NCBI GenBank assembly: GCA_002746295.2
Contig: NVWS02000060.1
Span: forward strand, 1 to 39,998
Direction of reading: 5' to 3'
DNA from: Zetaproteobacteria bacterium
GTDB taxonomy: Bacteria > Pseudomonadota > Zetaproteobacteria > Mariprofundales > Mariprofundaceae
DNA length: 39,998 bases
Positions 25,088 through 31,589 of the stretch are shown one piece after another. The translations under genes and the position numbers were made by a program. Position 1 is the stretch's first letter, and every line of letters starts with the position of its first letter. Under the pieces are notes generated by a model. The model did no database searches. It worked only from the letters and a program-made list of their open reading frames with translations, and was not told the origin of the DNA.

Positions 25088-25116
25088 AAGCGATATAAAA
25101 AATACTAAAACCTGAT

Positions 25117-25122
25117 GGAGGG
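25117..25122 (+). promoter_or_regulatory. Ribosome binding site fixing the OmpA-like lipoprotein start
   Basis: GGAGGG lies 7 bases before the ATG at 25130. An in-frame ATG at 25115 overlaps this site and is therefore unlikely to be the start. Confidence 0.75.
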
Positions 25123-25129
25123 AAGTAAA

Positions 25130-25789
25130 ATGTATGTTGGTATGATAACAGAGAAAGTAAGTCGTATATTATGTGTATGCTTGCTTGTACTGAGTATGAC
25201 AGCTTGTCAAACAACAGTAAAAAAAACTGATCACGTCAGGAAAAAACCAGATACTAGCATTCAACAAACAAATCAACTCAGAGCTGAAAAAATAAAACTT
25301 ACCGTTGAAAACAACCTTCTTCTGGCTCAAAAGTTAAATTTAAACGAACTTAACCGCCTCTTAAAAAATGAAGTTCAAGAAAAAACTGTCATGGTGGAGC
25401 AGCTCAAAAATAAAAGTATTAAAGTCACCTTTCTTAATTCCATCCTTTTTCCTTTTGGAAGTTTTGAGCTGAGTAAACAGGGGCGATCTGCTATTGTGAC
25501 ATTAAAGGATATTATAAAACAACATATTCAACAAGGTGGTATTATACGTATCATTGGTCATACTGATAATGTTGATGTGAATAAGTATAACCGTACTTAC
25601 AAAGATAATTGGGATTTATCATCTTTACGCGCCGCTTCTGTCGTTCGAGTATTGATTTGGGGACTTCATTTTAACCCCAATACATTTCGAGTTGAGGGCC
25701 ATGCTTCAACAGAGCCTAGAGCCAGCAATACCACTGAAAAAGGTCGCGCTCAAAATCGACGCATTGAAATTTTACTTACATCTAAATAA
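25130..25789 (+). CDS. OmpA-family peptidoglycan-binding lipoprotein with coiled-coil stalk
   Basis: The 219-residue protein has a lipoprotein signal with lipobox LSMTAC (Cys at about 26). A charged helical coiled-coil region follows at about residues 45-98, and an OmpA_C domain at about 103-219. That domain has the start F-x-S-I-L-FPFGSFELSKQG, the HTDN motif, and the peptidoglycan-contacting Asp and Arg in NWDLSSLRAASV. EGHASTEPRASN and GRAQNRRIEI complete the fold. It probably sits in the outer membrane and binds the cell wall. It has its own candidate promoter and precedes a hemerythrin-like gene by 12 bases. Its codons look slightly more AT-rich than those of its neighbours. Pal or a MotB-like protein are alternatives, but no transmembrane helix or Tol genes support those. 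Confidence 0.88.
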   Translation: MYVGMITEKVSRILCVCLLVLSMTACQTTVKKTDHVRKKPDTSIQQTNQLRAEKIKLTVENNLLLAQKLNLNELNRLLKNEVQEKTVMVEQLKNKSIKVTFLNSILFPFGSFELSKQGRSAIVTLKDIIKQHIQQGGIIRIIGHTDNVDVNKYNRTYKDNWDLSSLRAASVVRVLIWGLHFNPNTFRVEGHASTEPRASNTTEKGRAQNRRIEILLTSK

Positions 25790-25801
25790 AGGAGAAAAGT
25801 C

Positions 25802-26200
25802 ATGACCGTCATTTGGAAAGATGAATACAACACAGGCGAGCCTGAAATTGATAAACAACACAAGGTGATTTTTAAATACTTGGATGACCTTGAAGCGCAT
25901 ATGCAAGCGGGTGATATCGATGATAATTATGTGAAATGTTTAATGGATAACTTGGGCATTTTTACCCGCAGTCATTTTTGTTATGAAGAAATTTGTATGC
26001 GGCGCTATAAATGTCCTATTGGGGCAAAAAACAAAGACATTCACACCAAATTATTAAAAACTTACACGGCATATCGCCATCAACTGGATGATGAAGGTGT
26101 CACCGAAGATTTGATACAAAAAATTCATGATTTTATTGAAAGCTGGCTTTTAAATCACATCATCAAGATTGATACCCAATTACGCGACTGTATTGATTGA
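25802..26200 (+). CDS. Bacteriohemerythrin-like protein lacking one canonical ligand
   Basis: Hemerythrins bind O2 at a diiron site held by five His, one Glu and one Asp in a four-helix bundle. This 132-residue protein keeps His20 (EIDKQHKVIF), His58 and Glu62 (HFCYEE), His81 (IHTKLL), and His119 with Asp124 (HIIKID). At the position of the remaining ligand, which is His four residues before His81 in bacteriohemerythrins, it has Asn77. It is also Cys-rich near the site (Cys46, Cys60, Cys65, Cys71). AGGAG lies 8 bases before the ATG. It forms a likely two-gene unit with the OmpA-like lipoprotein. Oxygen or iron sensing or storage are possible roles; none is shown. Confidence 0.9.
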   Translation: MTVIWKDEYNTGEPEIDKQHKVIFKYLDDLEAHMQAGDIDDNYVKCLMDNLGIFTRSHFCYEEICMRRYKCPIGAKNKDIHTKLLKTYTAYRHQLDDEGVTEDLIQKIHDFIESWLLNHIIKIDTQLRDCID

Positions 26201-26207
26201 TCTTCGC

Positions 26208-27080
26208 TTAACTATCATAGCAGTCTATTTCAGCTTGCAAAGTCACATGCTCGATACCATATTGTTTTAATACGGAGATAAGCTTGGGTAAAATACCAAC
26301 CCAAGCTCCCATCTCATCCAAACGAATATGTGCAGATATTGCCAATTGATTGGATGGTAAACGCCACAGATGTATATGATGCATATCCACCACACCATCC
26401 ACATCTTTCATCGCAACTTTCAAATGCTCAATATCCATACCTTCGGGTGATGCCGACATCAATTCTAAGCTTGTTTCATGAATCAATCGCCAGCCGCCCC
26501 ATAATAAAATAGCCGCAATCACAAAAGATAGGATGGGATCAATCAAGACCCATCCTGTTGTCAAAATAACAATGCCAGCAATCATGGCAGCAACTGAACC
26601 CAAAGCATCGCCCACCACATGCCAGTAAGCAGCGCGTGTATTCAAATCATGACTACCATGCATCCATTTCATCATGATAAGGTTGACAAGCAAACCTATG
26701 GTCGCAATCCATAGCACCATCTCACCTTGCACTTCAGGTGGGTTCTTTAAACGGCTGATAGCTTCCCATACAATCCACACGGCAAGCAAACACAACATCC
26801 AAGCATTGACTTGAGCAGCCAACACTTTGGCACGACCATAACCATAACTCATACCAGCATGGGCGGGGCGTTTTGCAACACGCCCTGCCCACATCGCCAA
26901 ACCCAATGCCGCAACATCCAATATCATATGTCCTGCATCTGCCAACAAAGCCAGTGAGTGGCTCATGATGCCACCCACCAATTCGACGATTGCAAAAACC
27001 GCAGCCAACCAAAATGCAGCGCCTATACCATGATGATGGGCATGATCATGCCCATGGTGATGCTCATGCTTATCATTCAT
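26208..27080 (-). CDS. Cation diffusion facilitator metal exporter (CzcD/ZitB-like)
   Basis: CDF proteins export Zn(II) or similar ions in exchange for protons. The 290-residue protein has a His-rich N terminus (residues 5-17, ten His), six predicted transmembrane segments and the transport-site pairs His51/Asp55 in DAGHMILD and a second HVVGD in the fifth helix. The His-Asp/His-Asp combination is typical of zinc-preferring members. The cytoplasmic C-terminal domain ends with LQAEIDCY. It is 42 bases after the small lipoprotein gene on the same strand, and so may be the last gene of the efflux operon. It faces the hemerythrin gene across 7 bases. Confidence 0.93.
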   Translation of the reverse strand: MNDKHEHHHGHDHAHHHGIGAAFWLAAVFAIVELVGGIMSHSLALLADAGHMILDVAALGLAMWAGRVAKRPAHAGMSYGYGRAKVLAAQVNAWMLCLLAVWIVWEAISRLKNPPEVQGEMVLWIATIGLLVNLIMMKWMHGSHDLNTRAAYWHVVGDALGSVAAMIAGIVILTTGWVLIDPILSFVIAAILLWGGWRLIHETSLELMSASPEGMDIEHLKVAMKDVDGVVDMHHIHLWRLPSNQLAISAHIRLDEMGAWVGILPKLISVLKQYGIEHVTLQAEIDCYDS

Positions 27081-27309: not shown

Positions 27310-30300
27310 TCACTCTCCTCTAAATGGGCGACTAAAACGAGCATACAAACATGGTAAAACAAACAAGGTTAACAAGGTCGAAGAAACAAGACCACCCACC
27401 ACCACCGTTGCCAAAGGTTTTTGAATCTCTGAACCAATACCCGTTGCCAACAACAATGGAACAAGCCCCAAACCTGCAATCATGGCTGTCATCAACACAG
27501 GTCTTAAACGACTTTCAGCACCATGACAAATCGCTTCATCCATATCTTTGCAATCATCTCGATGACGATTGATGGCATCCACCAGTACGACACCATTGAG
27601 TACTGCGACACCAAATAAAGCAATAAAACCGATACTCGATGGTACAGATAAATATTGACCCGATGCCCATAAAGCTAAAATACCACCAATCAGTGCCATC
27701 GGTACATTCAGCATAATCAAGGTTGCCTGCCCCATGGAATTGAACATGAAATAAAGCAGAATAAAAATCATTAGCAAGGATAATGGCACCACCACCATTA
27801 ACTTGGCTTGAGCGCGTTGTTGATTTTCAAATTGACCACCAAAAACCACGGTATATCCAGGTGGTAAATCAATCTCATTTTGAATACGCTGATCCAATTC
27901 AGCTACAATGCTACCCATATCACGCCCTTCAACATTACTTTGAATGACCACACGCCGTTGCACATCATCTCGTCGAATCATGGGTGGTCCTTGTTCTACA
28001 GCAATGGAGGCCACATCTTCAAGGCGTACCCATGCGCCATCGGGTGCTTGCAGAATAAGGCTACCAATAGCCTCAGCATTATCACGAAAATCCTTCGCCA
28101 AGCGTACATAAATATTATAACGCTCGTTACCAGAAATAACCTGTCCAGCAGTGGCACCGCCAATAGCATCGGCGACCAATGACATCACTGCATCCACCGA
28201 AATACCATAACGATCCAGTTTGGCACGATTGGGACGAATCACCAATTGCGCTTCACCTTCAATTTGCTCCATGGCGACATCGCGTGTGCCTTGAACACTT
28301 TTGGTCAGTTTTTCGATTTCTTTGCCTTTGGCAGCCAAAACTTTTAAATCAGGACCAAAAAGCTTAATCGCCAAGGCAGCCTTAACACCCGATATCAGCT
28401 CATCCACACGCATGGCAATCGGTTGTGTAAAAGCAATCAACAACCCTGGTACCACGTCCATTTTTTCACGCATCAGTTCTTGTAAAGCAGGTCGATCACT
28501 GGCACTCGTCCAATCATGAATGGATTTCAAGCCAACAAACAATTCCACATTCGACACAGGTTCAGGATCACCACCAATCTCGGCTCGACCTATTCGAGAT
28601 GAGACATACGTCACTTCAGGAAAGGATTCAACCAAGATACGTTCCAATTTTGTACCCACACCTTTGGCAAACTCCAGTGAGGAGGATGGTGCCAATGTTA
28701 CCCGTATCGCCAAGGTTCCTTCTTCCAATTCAGGCACAAATTCTGTACCCAAAAATGGAACAATCGAAATGGTTAAGAAGAATGCAATCGCAGCACCTGC
28801 AAGCACACGTTTTTTTGCATGCAACGCCAAACCGAGAAGGCGGTGATAAGCACGCGCAATGGGAGCCAAGACGGGACTTTCCTTATGAACCACACCTTTG
28901 GTAAATACAAACGTTGCCAATACAGGCATGACCAATAATGCAACAAGTAGCGATGCAAACATGGCAAAGCAAATCGACAACGCCATCGGTGTAAACATTT
29001 TTCCTTCCACACCTTCAAGTGAAAACAACGGTGTAAATACCAATAGAATAATCAACACCGCAAATAATACAGGGCGTGCGACTTCTTTGGATGCTTCGGT
29101 AATACGCAAGGCAATGCCATGGTCATCTTCGGGCGTTTTCTCCAGATGTTTGAAAATATTTTCTACCATCACCACCGAGCCATCGACCATCATACCAATC
29201 GCAATCGCCAAGCCACCCAAGCTCATCAAGTTGGCTGAAATACCATAATGCTCCATCACAGCCAAGGCAGAGAGAACCGAAATAGGCACCGATAGCAAGA
29301 CCAATGTTGCTGCACGAACATTCATCAGGAATAAAAATAAAATAATAATAATCAGTACAAAGGCTTCAAGTAACGCTTTCTCAACCGTCCAAACCGCTTC
29401 GTTAATCAAATCCGATTGATCATAAAAGGGTTGAATCGTCACGCCCTTGGGCATGGATTTTTGGACAATTTTCAAGCGTTCTTTCACATCATCAATGGTA
29501 TTTTTTGTGTTGGCTCCAAATCGTTTGAGCACAATGCCCACCACCACTTCACCCAGCGGTTTCACACTGCCATCCGCAGCACGTTCCGTCATGGTGACAG
29601 CGCCTTGACGAATTTCACCGCCAAAAGACACGCTGGCTACATCACGCACTCGAATGGATGTACCATTGACAGTCTTCACTGGAATCGCGGCAATGGCTGT
29701 CAAACCATCTTGACCACCGGGTACCCAACCGACACCACGAATCACCAATTGCTCATCACCTTGTGCCAAATACCAACCGCCTGCATTGCGGTTGTTGGCT
29801 TCAATGGCTTTCACCACATCGGCAGTATGTAGCTTATAAGATAACAAACGTTCTGGATTAAGGTGAACTTGATATTGACGTACTTCACCGCCATAAGAGA
29901 GAATATCTGTCACACCACCCACAGGCATTAACATCAATTTGACCACCCAATCATTCAATGCACGGAGCGTTAAAGCATCATAACCTGCGGCTGGATCAGA
30001 TTTGATAATGTACTGAAATACCTGACCAAGCCCCGATGTATTCGGGCCAATTTTCGGCGTACCCGCCCAAGAAGGCACGGTTTGCCGAGCATCTTGTAAT
30101 TTTTGGAACACCAATTGGCGGGCAAAATAAATGTCAGTTCCCTCTTTGAACACTACAGTAATCACCGATAAGCCTGTTTTAGAAATGGAACGCACTTCTT
30201 CAACATCAGGCAATGAATACATCACAGCTTCAATGGGATAAGTAATGATCTGCTCAACTTCTTCCGATGCCAAACCTTGCGCTTCGGTATTGATTTGCAC

Positions 30301-30438
30301 CTGCACATTGGTGACATCTGGAAAAGCATCCAAATTCAACTTTGGTACGACAAACAACGCATAAGCCATCGAACCCAGCAATAACATCAAAATCAGTAGG
30401 CGGTTATTTACCGCCGCATCAATCATTTTTGTTAGCAT
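27310..30438 (-). CDS. czcA: Heavy-metal efflux RND transporter (CzcA-like)
   Basis: This inner-membrane RND pump drives metal efflux with the proton gradient. The product is about 1042 residues. An N-terminal transmembrane helix is followed by the porter domain, with FPDVTNVQVQINTEAQGL and YPIEAVMYSLPDVEEVRS. The fourth-helix motif is GGLAIAIGMMVDGSVVMVEN, with charged Asp and Glu for proton relay. The segment FTQPIAMRVDELISGV has no copper-type Met at the CusA Met672 position, so a divalent cation (Zn, Co, Cd, Ni) substrate is more likely than Cu or Ag. This substrate choice is inference. TTG at 30450 also opens the frame, but GAGG 6 bases before the ATG at 30438 selects the shorter start. 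It lies 8 bases after czcB. Confidence 0.95.
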   Translation of the reverse strand: MLTKMIDAAVNNRLLILMLLLGSMAYALFVVPKLNLDAFPDVTNVQVQINTEAQGLASEEVEQIITYPIEAVMYSLPDVEEVRSISKTGLSVITVVFKEGTDIYFARQLVFQKLQDARQTVPSWAGTPKIGPNTSGLGQVFQYIIKSDPAAGYDALTLRALNDWVVKLMLMPVGGVTDILSYGGEVRQYQVHLNPERLLSYKLHTADVVKAIEANNRNAGGWYLAQGDEQLVIRGVGWVPGGQDGLTAIAAIPVKTVNGTSIRVRDVASVSFGGEIRQGAVTMTERAADGSVKPLGEVVVGIVLKRFGANTKNTIDDVKERLKIVQKSMPKGVTIQPFYDQSDLINEAVWTVEKALLEAFVLIIIILFLFLMNVRAATLVLLSVPISVLSALAVMEHYGISANLMSLGGLAIAIGMMVDGSVVMVENIFKHLEKTPEDDHGIALRITEASKEVARPVLFAVLIILLVFTPLFSLEGVEGKMFTPMALSICFAMFASLLVALLVMPVLATFVFTKGVVHKESPVLAPIARAYHRLLGLALHAKKRVLAGAAIAFFLTISIVPFLGTEFVPELEEGTLAIRVTLAPSSSLEFAKGVGTKLERILVESFPEVTYVSSRIGRAEIGGDPEPVSNVELFVGLKSIHDWTSASDRPALQELMREKMDVVPGLLIAFTQPIAMRVDELISGVKAALAIKLFGPDLKVLAAKGKEIEKLTKSVQGTRDVAMEQIEGEAQLVIRPNRAKLDRYGISVDAVMSLVADAIGGATAGQVISGNERYNIYVRLAKDFRDNAEAIGSLILQAPDGAWVRLEDVASIAVEQGPPMIRRDDVQRRVVIQSNVEGRDMGSIVAELDQRIQNEIDLPPGYTVVFGGQFENQQRAQAKLMVVVPLSLLMIFILLYFMFNSMGQATLIMLNVPMALIGGILALWASGQYLSVPSSIGFIALFGVAVLNGVVLVDAINRHRDDCKDMDEAICHGAESRLRPVLMTAMIAGLGLVPLLLATGIGSEIQKPLATVVVGGLVSSTLLTLFVLPCLYARFSRPFRGE

Positions 30439-30446
30439 GGTTGACC

Positions 30447-31589
30447 TCAATGGTTGTGTACTTCAAAACCAGCTTTCGCTAATTCTGAAGCAAGCACAAA
30501 CGCACCTTTCACAACCACCAACTCACCTGCCTTCACCCCTTCAAGAATACTTACAAGCCCCATATTGGACTTGCTTACCTTGACTTCTCGACGTTCAAAA
30601 TGACCGGGTTCTTCTTCAACAAAAACAATCAACTCACTGCCTTGACGTTGAATCGCTTGATCTGAAATAAGCAATGCTTTTTCACCTGAACCGATGACAA
30701 TATCGGCACGAACAAACATACCTGGATGCAATTGATCCTTGTTGTTTTGAATACTCAAACGCACGCCTGCTGTACGTGTGATGGGATCCAAAGCATGGTG
30801 TATATTCATAACTCGACCCATATATTGTTGGCTCCCGCCACGTAACATCACCGATGCTTGTTGATTCACTGCAATATCGACCAAACGAACTTCAGGCACC
30901 TTCACTTCAACCCAAACATGGGATTCATCCACGATTTGCATCAAGCGGTTACCCGCTGCGATATGCTGCCCCAAACTAAAATTATCATTGACCACTGTTC
31001 CTGCGTGTGGCGCGCGCAAGGTCAACAAACCATAGGCTTCTTGTTTTAATAATTGATCAATATTTTGATGTGTCAAACCATAAGAAACCAATATCGCTTT
31101 TGCCGCAGAAAAATTGGCATGGGTACTTTGATACGTACTTTCAACTTGTTGTAAACGCGCTTGCGATACAATTTTTTGCTTGGCTAGTTTTTTTAAACGG
31201 GTGAATTCCTGTTTGCTTCGGCGGTGTTCAGCTCTTGCTTTAAGATAATTAGCTTCTGCTTGCGCCAACACCGTGCTATTGAGAGTGACCAGTTTTTGCC
31301 CTTTTATCACTTGCTCACCCAAATAAACATGGCGGCTATGCACCGTTGCATCCACCAAGGTGGTAATATCAGCCAAGCCATAACCATTAAATGCCACCAC
31401 ACCGGGGGCTTGGATACTCTTCATTTGATGTTGGTGTTTCAATAGCATGGTCACAATGCCACCTTGTTTCACCTGTGCAGGCGTTAACTTCACCACGCCG
31501 CCTTCTTCATGACCGCCATGTTGAGGATCCGCTGCCCAAGCAGGAAGGCTCAATGTTAGTATGGTAAACAATAAAATAATTTTTTTCAT
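30447..31589 (-). CDS. czcB: Periplasmic adaptor of the metal RND efflux system (CzcB-like)
   Basis: This membrane-fusion protein links the RND pump to the outer-membrane channel. From ATG at 31589 it is 380 residues, with a signal sequence (cleaved near AWA) and a His-containing mature N terminus (DPQHGGHEEGG). A barrel-sandwich or lipoyl half-motif (VYLGEQVIKGQKLVTL) follows, then a coiled-coil hairpin at about residues 110-185 and the second half-motif (LRAPHAGTVVNDNFSLGQHIAAG). The beta-barrel domain is VMLRGGSQQYMGRV. AAGGAA precedes the ATG. The start overlaps the czcC stop by 4 bases. A 45-residue N-terminal extension in frame lies within czcC and is not supported. Confidence 0.93.
   Translation of the reverse strand: MKKIILLFTILTLSLPAWAADPQHGGHEEGGVVKLTPAQVKQGGIVTMLLKHQHQMKSIQAPGVVAFNGYGLADITTLVDATVHSRHVYLGEQVIKGQKLVTLNSTVLAQAEANYLKARAEHRRSKQEFTRLKKLAKQKIVSQARLQQVESTYQSTHANFSAAKAILVSYGLTHQNIDQLLKQEAYGLLTLRAPHAGTVVNDNFSLGQHIAAGNRLMQIVDESHVWVEVKVPEVRLVDIAVNQQASVMLRGGSQQYMGRVMNIHHALDPITRTAGVRLSIQNNKDQLHPGMFVRADIVIGSGEKALLISDQAIQRQGSELIVFVEEEPGHFERREVKVSKSNMGLVSILEGVKAGELVVVKGAFVLASELAKAGFEVHNH

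Follow-up and report, generated by a model that had tools for sequence, protein, structure and literature searches.

A bacteriohemerythrin clade of Zetaproteobacteria with asparagine fixed at a canonical iron-ligand histidine and a probably altered diiron site

In hemerythrins of known structure, Fe1 is held by the His pair of helix C and the His of helix D; in O2 carriers this iron is six-coordinate and saturated, and O2 binds at Fe2. FBXL5-type hemerythrins possess an extra ligand, a Glu directly after the helix-B His. Altered sites were listed for 58 of 327 bacterial hemerythrins by Bailly et al. (2008); of the 71 alterations, 45 lay in helix C and 7 were changes to Asn, and the authors suggested that the function of single-domain hemerythrins is perhaps less important (PMC2556348). 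Ligand variants were also noted in 106 single-domain sequences in a 2016 paper (PMC4919030), and two hemerythrins were counted in M. ferrooxydans PV-1 (PMC3770913). The diiron site of YtfE is described as having four His, two Glu and an oxo bridge, with H84 and H204 on Fe1, H129 and H160 on Fe2 and E133 and E208 bridging, and most bacterial RICs contain a ScdA_N domain with a CC motif (PMC9268430). RIC/YtfE has been proposed to donate iron or to take part in the chemistry of NO or nitrite. The mycobacterial hemerythrin-like protein Mka HLP is a NO peroxidase whose ligands depart from the five-His set (PMC8913304), and HerA of C. jejuni guards Fe-S enzymes against O2 and peroxide damage, protecting but not repairing them (PMC4257069). 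The His-to-Asn type of change is therefore already known. A clade in which this Asn is fixed was not found described in the open-access papers that were searched.

The window, the whole stretch of 39,998 nucleotides that was analysed, comes from a genome of the class Zetaproteobacteria and encodes such a protein:

25802..26200, + strand: CDS of an Asn-variant single-domain bacteriohemerythrin, 132 aa (ORF translation, NCBIfam match, AF2 fold)
25788..25794, + strand: AAAGGAG, resembling a ribosome-binding site, upstream of the ATG and sharing bases with the stop codon of the preceding gene (read from the sequence)
25115..25789, + strand: gene for an OmpA-domain protein, ending 12 bases upstream of the hemerythrin (ORF and Pfam)

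The protein belongs to the bacteriohemerythrin sequence family, but it does not have the canonical site. It scored above the NCBIfam cut-offs for the hemerythrin domain (TIGR02481, 98.6 vs 51.75) and for bacteriohemerythrin (NF033749, 90.5 vs 84), and fell 0.3 bits short of the Pfam cut-off for PF01814 (25.0 vs 25.3). Hemerythrin was the only Pfam domain found and ScdA_N was absent; the domain stands alone, with no fused output domain. Among the matches listed by phmmer against solved structures, the sequence relatives were hemerythrins only. AF2 with 22 aligned sequences gave five models with mean pLDDT from 60.9 to 92.7, and the best one (92.7), which was used here, has the four-helix-bundle fold of solved hemerythrins. 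Its best folds among the matches listed were DcrH-Hr (3waq; Z 16.8, rmsd 2.1, 127 residues) and McHr (4xpx; Z 16.1), on a scale where unrelated helical bundles among the matches listed reached Z 12.9. RIC was not among the best 50 matches listed of each fold search, which is no argument against a relation.

The first-shell residues of the metal site lie at the following positions:

25859..25861, + strand: His20 codon, ligand of helix A (36/36 orthologs reaching the position)
25973..25975, + strand: His58 codon, ligand of helix B (37/37 orthologs)
25985..25987, + strand: Glu62 codon, bridging carboxylate by homology (37/37 orthologs)
26030..26032, + strand: Asn77 codon AAC, at the position of the first ligand His of helix C (Asn in 37/37 orthologs; AAC 22, AAT 15)
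26042..26044, + strand: His81 codon, second ligand of helix C (37/37 orthologs)
26156..26158, + strand: His119 codon, ligand of helix D (36/36 orthologs reaching the position)
26171..26173, + strand: Asp124 codon, bridging carboxylate by homology (36/36 orthologs reaching the position)

We take His20 to be a Fe2-side ligand by homology. The original prediction had named these ligand residues together with Cys60, Cys65 and Cys71, and all of them are present in the translated ORF. It had also placed Asn77 at a canonical iron-ligand His, and this register was confirmed by phmmer against the solved DcrH-Hr (2avk) and McHr (4xpx): the stretch from His58 to His81 aligned gap-free, the template His that faces Asn77 is the first of the helix-C HxxxH pair, and no other His takes the ligand site. 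As there is no gap in this stretch, misalignment is ruled out as the source of Asn77. The canonical set of five His, one Glu and one Asp is thus incomplete in 37/37 orthologs, which answers the question raised with the prediction, whether close relatives also have Asn.

These 37 distinct orthologs, the set left after duplicate removal with one genome per species, were found by profile search in 37 of the 78 genomes of the class, with bit scores of 120-256. The next-best matches in the class stayed below 60 bits and the top single match outside it reached 74 bits. At the lower end of the range lies a strongly diverged clade member (L064, G027:C232:9771-10160; 120 bits). The profile search did not find the subfamily in the 23 genomes of g11, the largest genus group in the class table. 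A short-peptide scan of 84,980 genomes, one per species, gave 24 relatives, the nearest 91% identical, which were assigned to Mariprofundaceae, Mariprofundales, Mariprofundus, Ghiorsea or Zetaproteobacteria and in two cases to proteobacteria only. Since 37 genomes of different species share the Asn and encode it with two synonymous codons, a sequencing error or recent mutation is ruled out. For ten chosen ortholog pairs, NG86 gave dN of 0.014-0.133. Two of the pairs were saturated; the remaining eight had a finite dS, although several came close to saturation, and their dN/dS was 0.007-0.18. Judged from the low dN/dS in these sampled pairs, the subfamily is under purifying selection and is a maintained protein. 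The Asn77 swap is genuine and is kept by selection.

Asn is rare at this column elsewhere. The comparison set comprised 55 other hemerythrin domains, namely 27 further matches from the class, L001 from the window's genome and 27 picked from the phylum list. His occupies the ligand column in 49 of the 54 that have a letter there; Asn occurs twice, and Gln, Leu and Trp once each. Some of the non-His rows fall in loops whose alignment is uncertain. A DNA motif scan of 398 genomes of the same phylum (HFxxEE, then Asn at the right spacing, then His) matched 40, of which 37 belong to this clade, one (G200) has another hemerythrin and two are likely chance (the match in G386 contains an in-frame stop, and G166 has no profile match among the matches listed); the backwards control matched once. 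The His version was present in 101/398 genomes with four matches in its backwards control, and some of the 101 may be chance. The G200 protein (L099/L118, G200:C64) is a hemerythrin that does not come from the class and likewise has Asn at this ligand column. Its genome contains 13 canonical His motifs, and it is probably an independent case of the swap. Phyla beyond that of the window were covered by exact short peptides and by the plasmid, phage and viral-contig scans only. In a tree of 35 orthologs and the 55 other domains, a branch supported at 100/99 separated the clade from the other rows, and the clade was retained after removal of nine hallmark columns (SH-aLRT 99, quick method). Both trees are built on few columns and contain long branches, and which row adjoins the clade is not settled.

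The window's genome has further hemerythrin-like genes. L001 (812-2287, on another contig) reads in translation as a fusion of a hemerythrin domain with a GGDEF-like C-terminal part, with several His at a different spacing in the helix-C region. L002 (1492-1962) is a separate HHE-type protein, and the gene directly upstream of it translates to a di-heme cytochrome c peroxidase-like protein.

Besides Asn77, the clade is marked by residues that are rare or absent in other hemerythrins:

25979..25981, + strand: Cys60 codon (36/37 orthologs; 0/55 other hemerythrin domains)
25994..25996, + strand: Cys65 codon (33/37 orthologs; Cys in one other hemerythrin, L069)
26012..26014, + strand: Cys71 codon (36/37 orthologs; 0/52 others, where the residue is mostly Tyr or Phe)
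26189..26191, + strand: Cys130 codon near the C-terminus (35/35 orthologs with a letter; 0/8 others with a letter, only 8/55 other rows reaching the column)
25877..25879, + strand: Tyr26 codon, clade hallmark (36/36 orthologs; 0/55 other hemerythrin domains)
25955..25957, + strand: Gly52 codon, clade hallmark (94% of 36 orthologs; 0/55 others)

Cys130, which was absent from the original list of cysteines, could not be scored in L054, which ends before the column, and in L063, which stops at a contig end. Arg56 and Arg67 are hallmarks as well (each 37/37 orthologs, vs 11% and 13% of the other domains). Judged from the helix positions, Tyr26 (helix A) could lie opposite Gly52 (helix B) in the vicinity of the site. 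Asn77 is constant where the cysteines vary, and Arg56 and Arg67 are equally constant. The diverged L064 retains Asn77, Cys71 and Cys130 but neither Cys60 nor Cys65, and L054 retains Asn77 and Cys60 but not Cys65, Cys71 or Cys130. Since L053, L054, L061 and L064 all keep Asn77 while at least one cysteine is missing, the Asn does not depend on the full cysteine set. Phe59, Trp115, Leu116 and Ile120, which we take to line the oxygen pocket, are conserved in 97-100% of the orthologs.

The surroundings of the gene are variable. No neighbour family recurred in more than 8 of 27 loci, in a count that kept the longest ORF per place (the hemerythrin itself was displaced in L013, L015, L019, L020 and L026) and in which several flanks ended at contig ends. 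Co-transcription with the OmpA-domain gene is possible in the window, as a local arrangement and not as a conserved partnership. No conserved FNR-type box was found up to 300 bases upstream of 25 loci with at most two mismatches, and the single exact match lies at -280 of L005. On the other side of the gene, 26208-27080 (- strand) has a translation that resembles cation-diffusion-facilitator exporters and is rich in His at the N-terminus, and the adjoining 27310-30450 (- strand) reads like a CusA-type RND pump. There was no sign of a mobile origin: 17 plasmid records and two phage records matched, all below 60% identity, and the viral-contig scan gave two matches only, of 19 residues each.

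The original prediction had offered a mononuclear site, an altered affinity or tuning for sensing as consequences of the swap. The likeliest of its options, as read from the sequence, is that the diiron site is altered and differs in how it binds ligands or in its redox behaviour. The mononuclear option is less supported, since the four remaining His and both carboxylates are invariant in the orthologs wherever sequence covers them, which would be unexpected if one iron had been lost. With one ligand His exchanged for Asn and conserved cysteines gained, the two-iron site is probably unlike that of ordinary oxygen carriers in its reactivity. We propose, with a probability of roughly 0.5, that this is a clade-specific bacteriohemerythrin with a diiron site that was rebuilt and not lost, and that it may react with O2, peroxide or NO instead of being a reversible carrier.

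By comparison with solved hemerythrins, where Fe1 has three terminal His, Asn77 would stand in for one of these. Fe1 would be left with His81 and His119, either five-coordinate or with a weak ligand, the Asn oxygen or water. In plant lipoxygenases, Asn serves as such a weak oxygen ligand. Both irons would then be open to an exogenous ligand, each with two His and two shared carboxylates, and the total of four His and two carboxylates would equal the RIC/YtfE count. Two irons are most likely still bound and could react with O2, peroxide or NO, and the protein may shield oxygen-sensitive enzymes in a cytoplasm where O2 is low and Fe(II) is high. The cysteines are presumably reduced there and may act as an electron source or a thiol switch at the end of the bundle where the site lies, which is the weakest step. 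A diiron protein reactive with O2, peroxide or NO is favoured by the ligand count of YtfE and by the NO peroxidase activity of the mycobacterial HLP. The proposal is consistent with the fixed Asn77, the other ligands kept, the single supported clade, the low dN/dS and the conserved pocket residues. Against it stand that the reactivity is an analogy drawn from the ligand count, whereas YtfE arranges its helices differently and has a further domain, and that neither a conserved partner gene (27 loci) nor an FNR-like box (25 loci) accompanies the gene. As to setting, Ghiorsea MAGs are reported to contain cbb3 oxidases and nitrate and nitrite reductase genes (PMC10734525), which makes both low O2 and reactive nitrogen plausible. 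HerA and HerB of the microaerophile C. jejuni would be the physiological precedent for the protection of Fe-S enzymes.

An O2-binding bacteriohemerythrin with shifted affinity or autoxidation is quite possible, because the Fe2 side and the presumed pocket residues are intact: O2 would bind at Fe2, with Asn77 or water on Fe1, for storage or delivery at low O2. The nearest solved relatives are O2-binding hemerythrins and hemerythrin domains. The protein may also replace an ordinary hemerythrin, as 34/37 genomes with the Asn protein have no canonical His motif at the exact spacing; the motif was present in 3/37 of them vs 16/41 other genomes of the class (Fisher p 0.0016, kinship ignored). Phylogeny is a confounder of this argument, and so are hemerythrin domains of other spacing, such as L001 in the window's genome. 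Moreover, the fixed loss of a strong ligand together with new conserved cysteines across the clade suggests more than tuning.

The cysteines are central to a less probable alternative, a redox or metal sensor or switch. In it, a thiol pair or an additional metal site made up of Cys60, Cys65, Cys71 and Cys130 would be linked to the diiron site, and the protein would signal to a partner. Their near-invariance in the clade (36, 33 and 36 of 37, and 35/35) and the rarity of Cys at these columns elsewhere (0/55, one row, 0/52 and 0/8) agree with it, as does L054, the sole case of Cys71 loss, where Cys65 and Cys130 are gone as well, as if the residues acted together, although this is a single case. 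However, a switch of this kind seems unlikely with neither a fused output domain nor a conserved neighbour, and with four orthologs that kept Asn77 without the full set. A site with a single iron or with a different metal, or one that has degenerated and lost its function, is improbable, since although one ligand is gone and the 18% of bacterial hemerythrins altered in the 2008 survey are read by its authors as 'mutated away' from the canonical motif (PMC2556348), the remaining ligands of both irons are invariant and dN/dS is low in the pairs tested.

If the rebuilt, reactive diiron site is the right reading, a class of iron oxidizers might have turned an oxygen-carrying hemerythrin into an enzyme with a catalytic diiron centre, through the one fixed ligand change, which would open the second iron. 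A cysteine relay would serve as its inbuilt electron donor or switch, and it would do the NO, peroxide or O2 work of RIC; this wider version is doubtful. Altered bacterial hemerythrins have so far been listed as deviants with no function assigned, and here the single-ligand change is natural and fixed. It changes a normally saturated iron by one residue and could serve as a probe of whether it is saturation that makes hemerythrin carry O2 and keeps it from acting as an enzyme. This would also contribute to the functional assignment of a protein that marine iron oxidizers conserve.

In the text of Bailly et al. (2008), the altered hemerythrins are listed deviants, whereas the Asn of the window's protein is fixed in a clade along with cysteines. 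Unlike FBXL5-type hemerythrins, the protein has Phe59 and not Glu directly after the helix-B His in 37/37 orthologs. HerA of C. jejuni differs in keeping every ligand His, and HerB, for which there is evidence of Fe-S enzyme protection, is likewise a hemerythrin with extra Cys motifs, but with its Cys in a C-terminal extension and a hemerythrin-like spectrum (PMC4257069). Mka HLP resembles the window's protein in its non-canonical His set in a related fold (PMC8913304), and differs in an extra Tyr ligand and a fifth helix; Tyr26 is here a clade hallmark only. The four His and two carboxylates read from the sequence equal the RIC/YtfE/ScdA set in number, and would be coordinated alike only by analogy; RIC likewise has a conserved Cys motif, elsewhere in the protein (PMC9268430). 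In contrast to RIC/YtfE, the window's protein lacks ScdA_N, which had no match in the 78 class genomes, its helix D has HxxxxD where the article gives HxxxE, and the two-helix swap belongs to YtfE (PMC9268430). The bacteriohemerythrins DcrH-Hr and McHr (NF033749, TIGR02481) share its sequence family, predicted fold, length and six of the seven ligands; the window's clade is set apart from them by four His instead of five, with Asn at the first helix-C ligand, and by its own cysteines, Tyr26, Gly52, Arg56 and Arg67.
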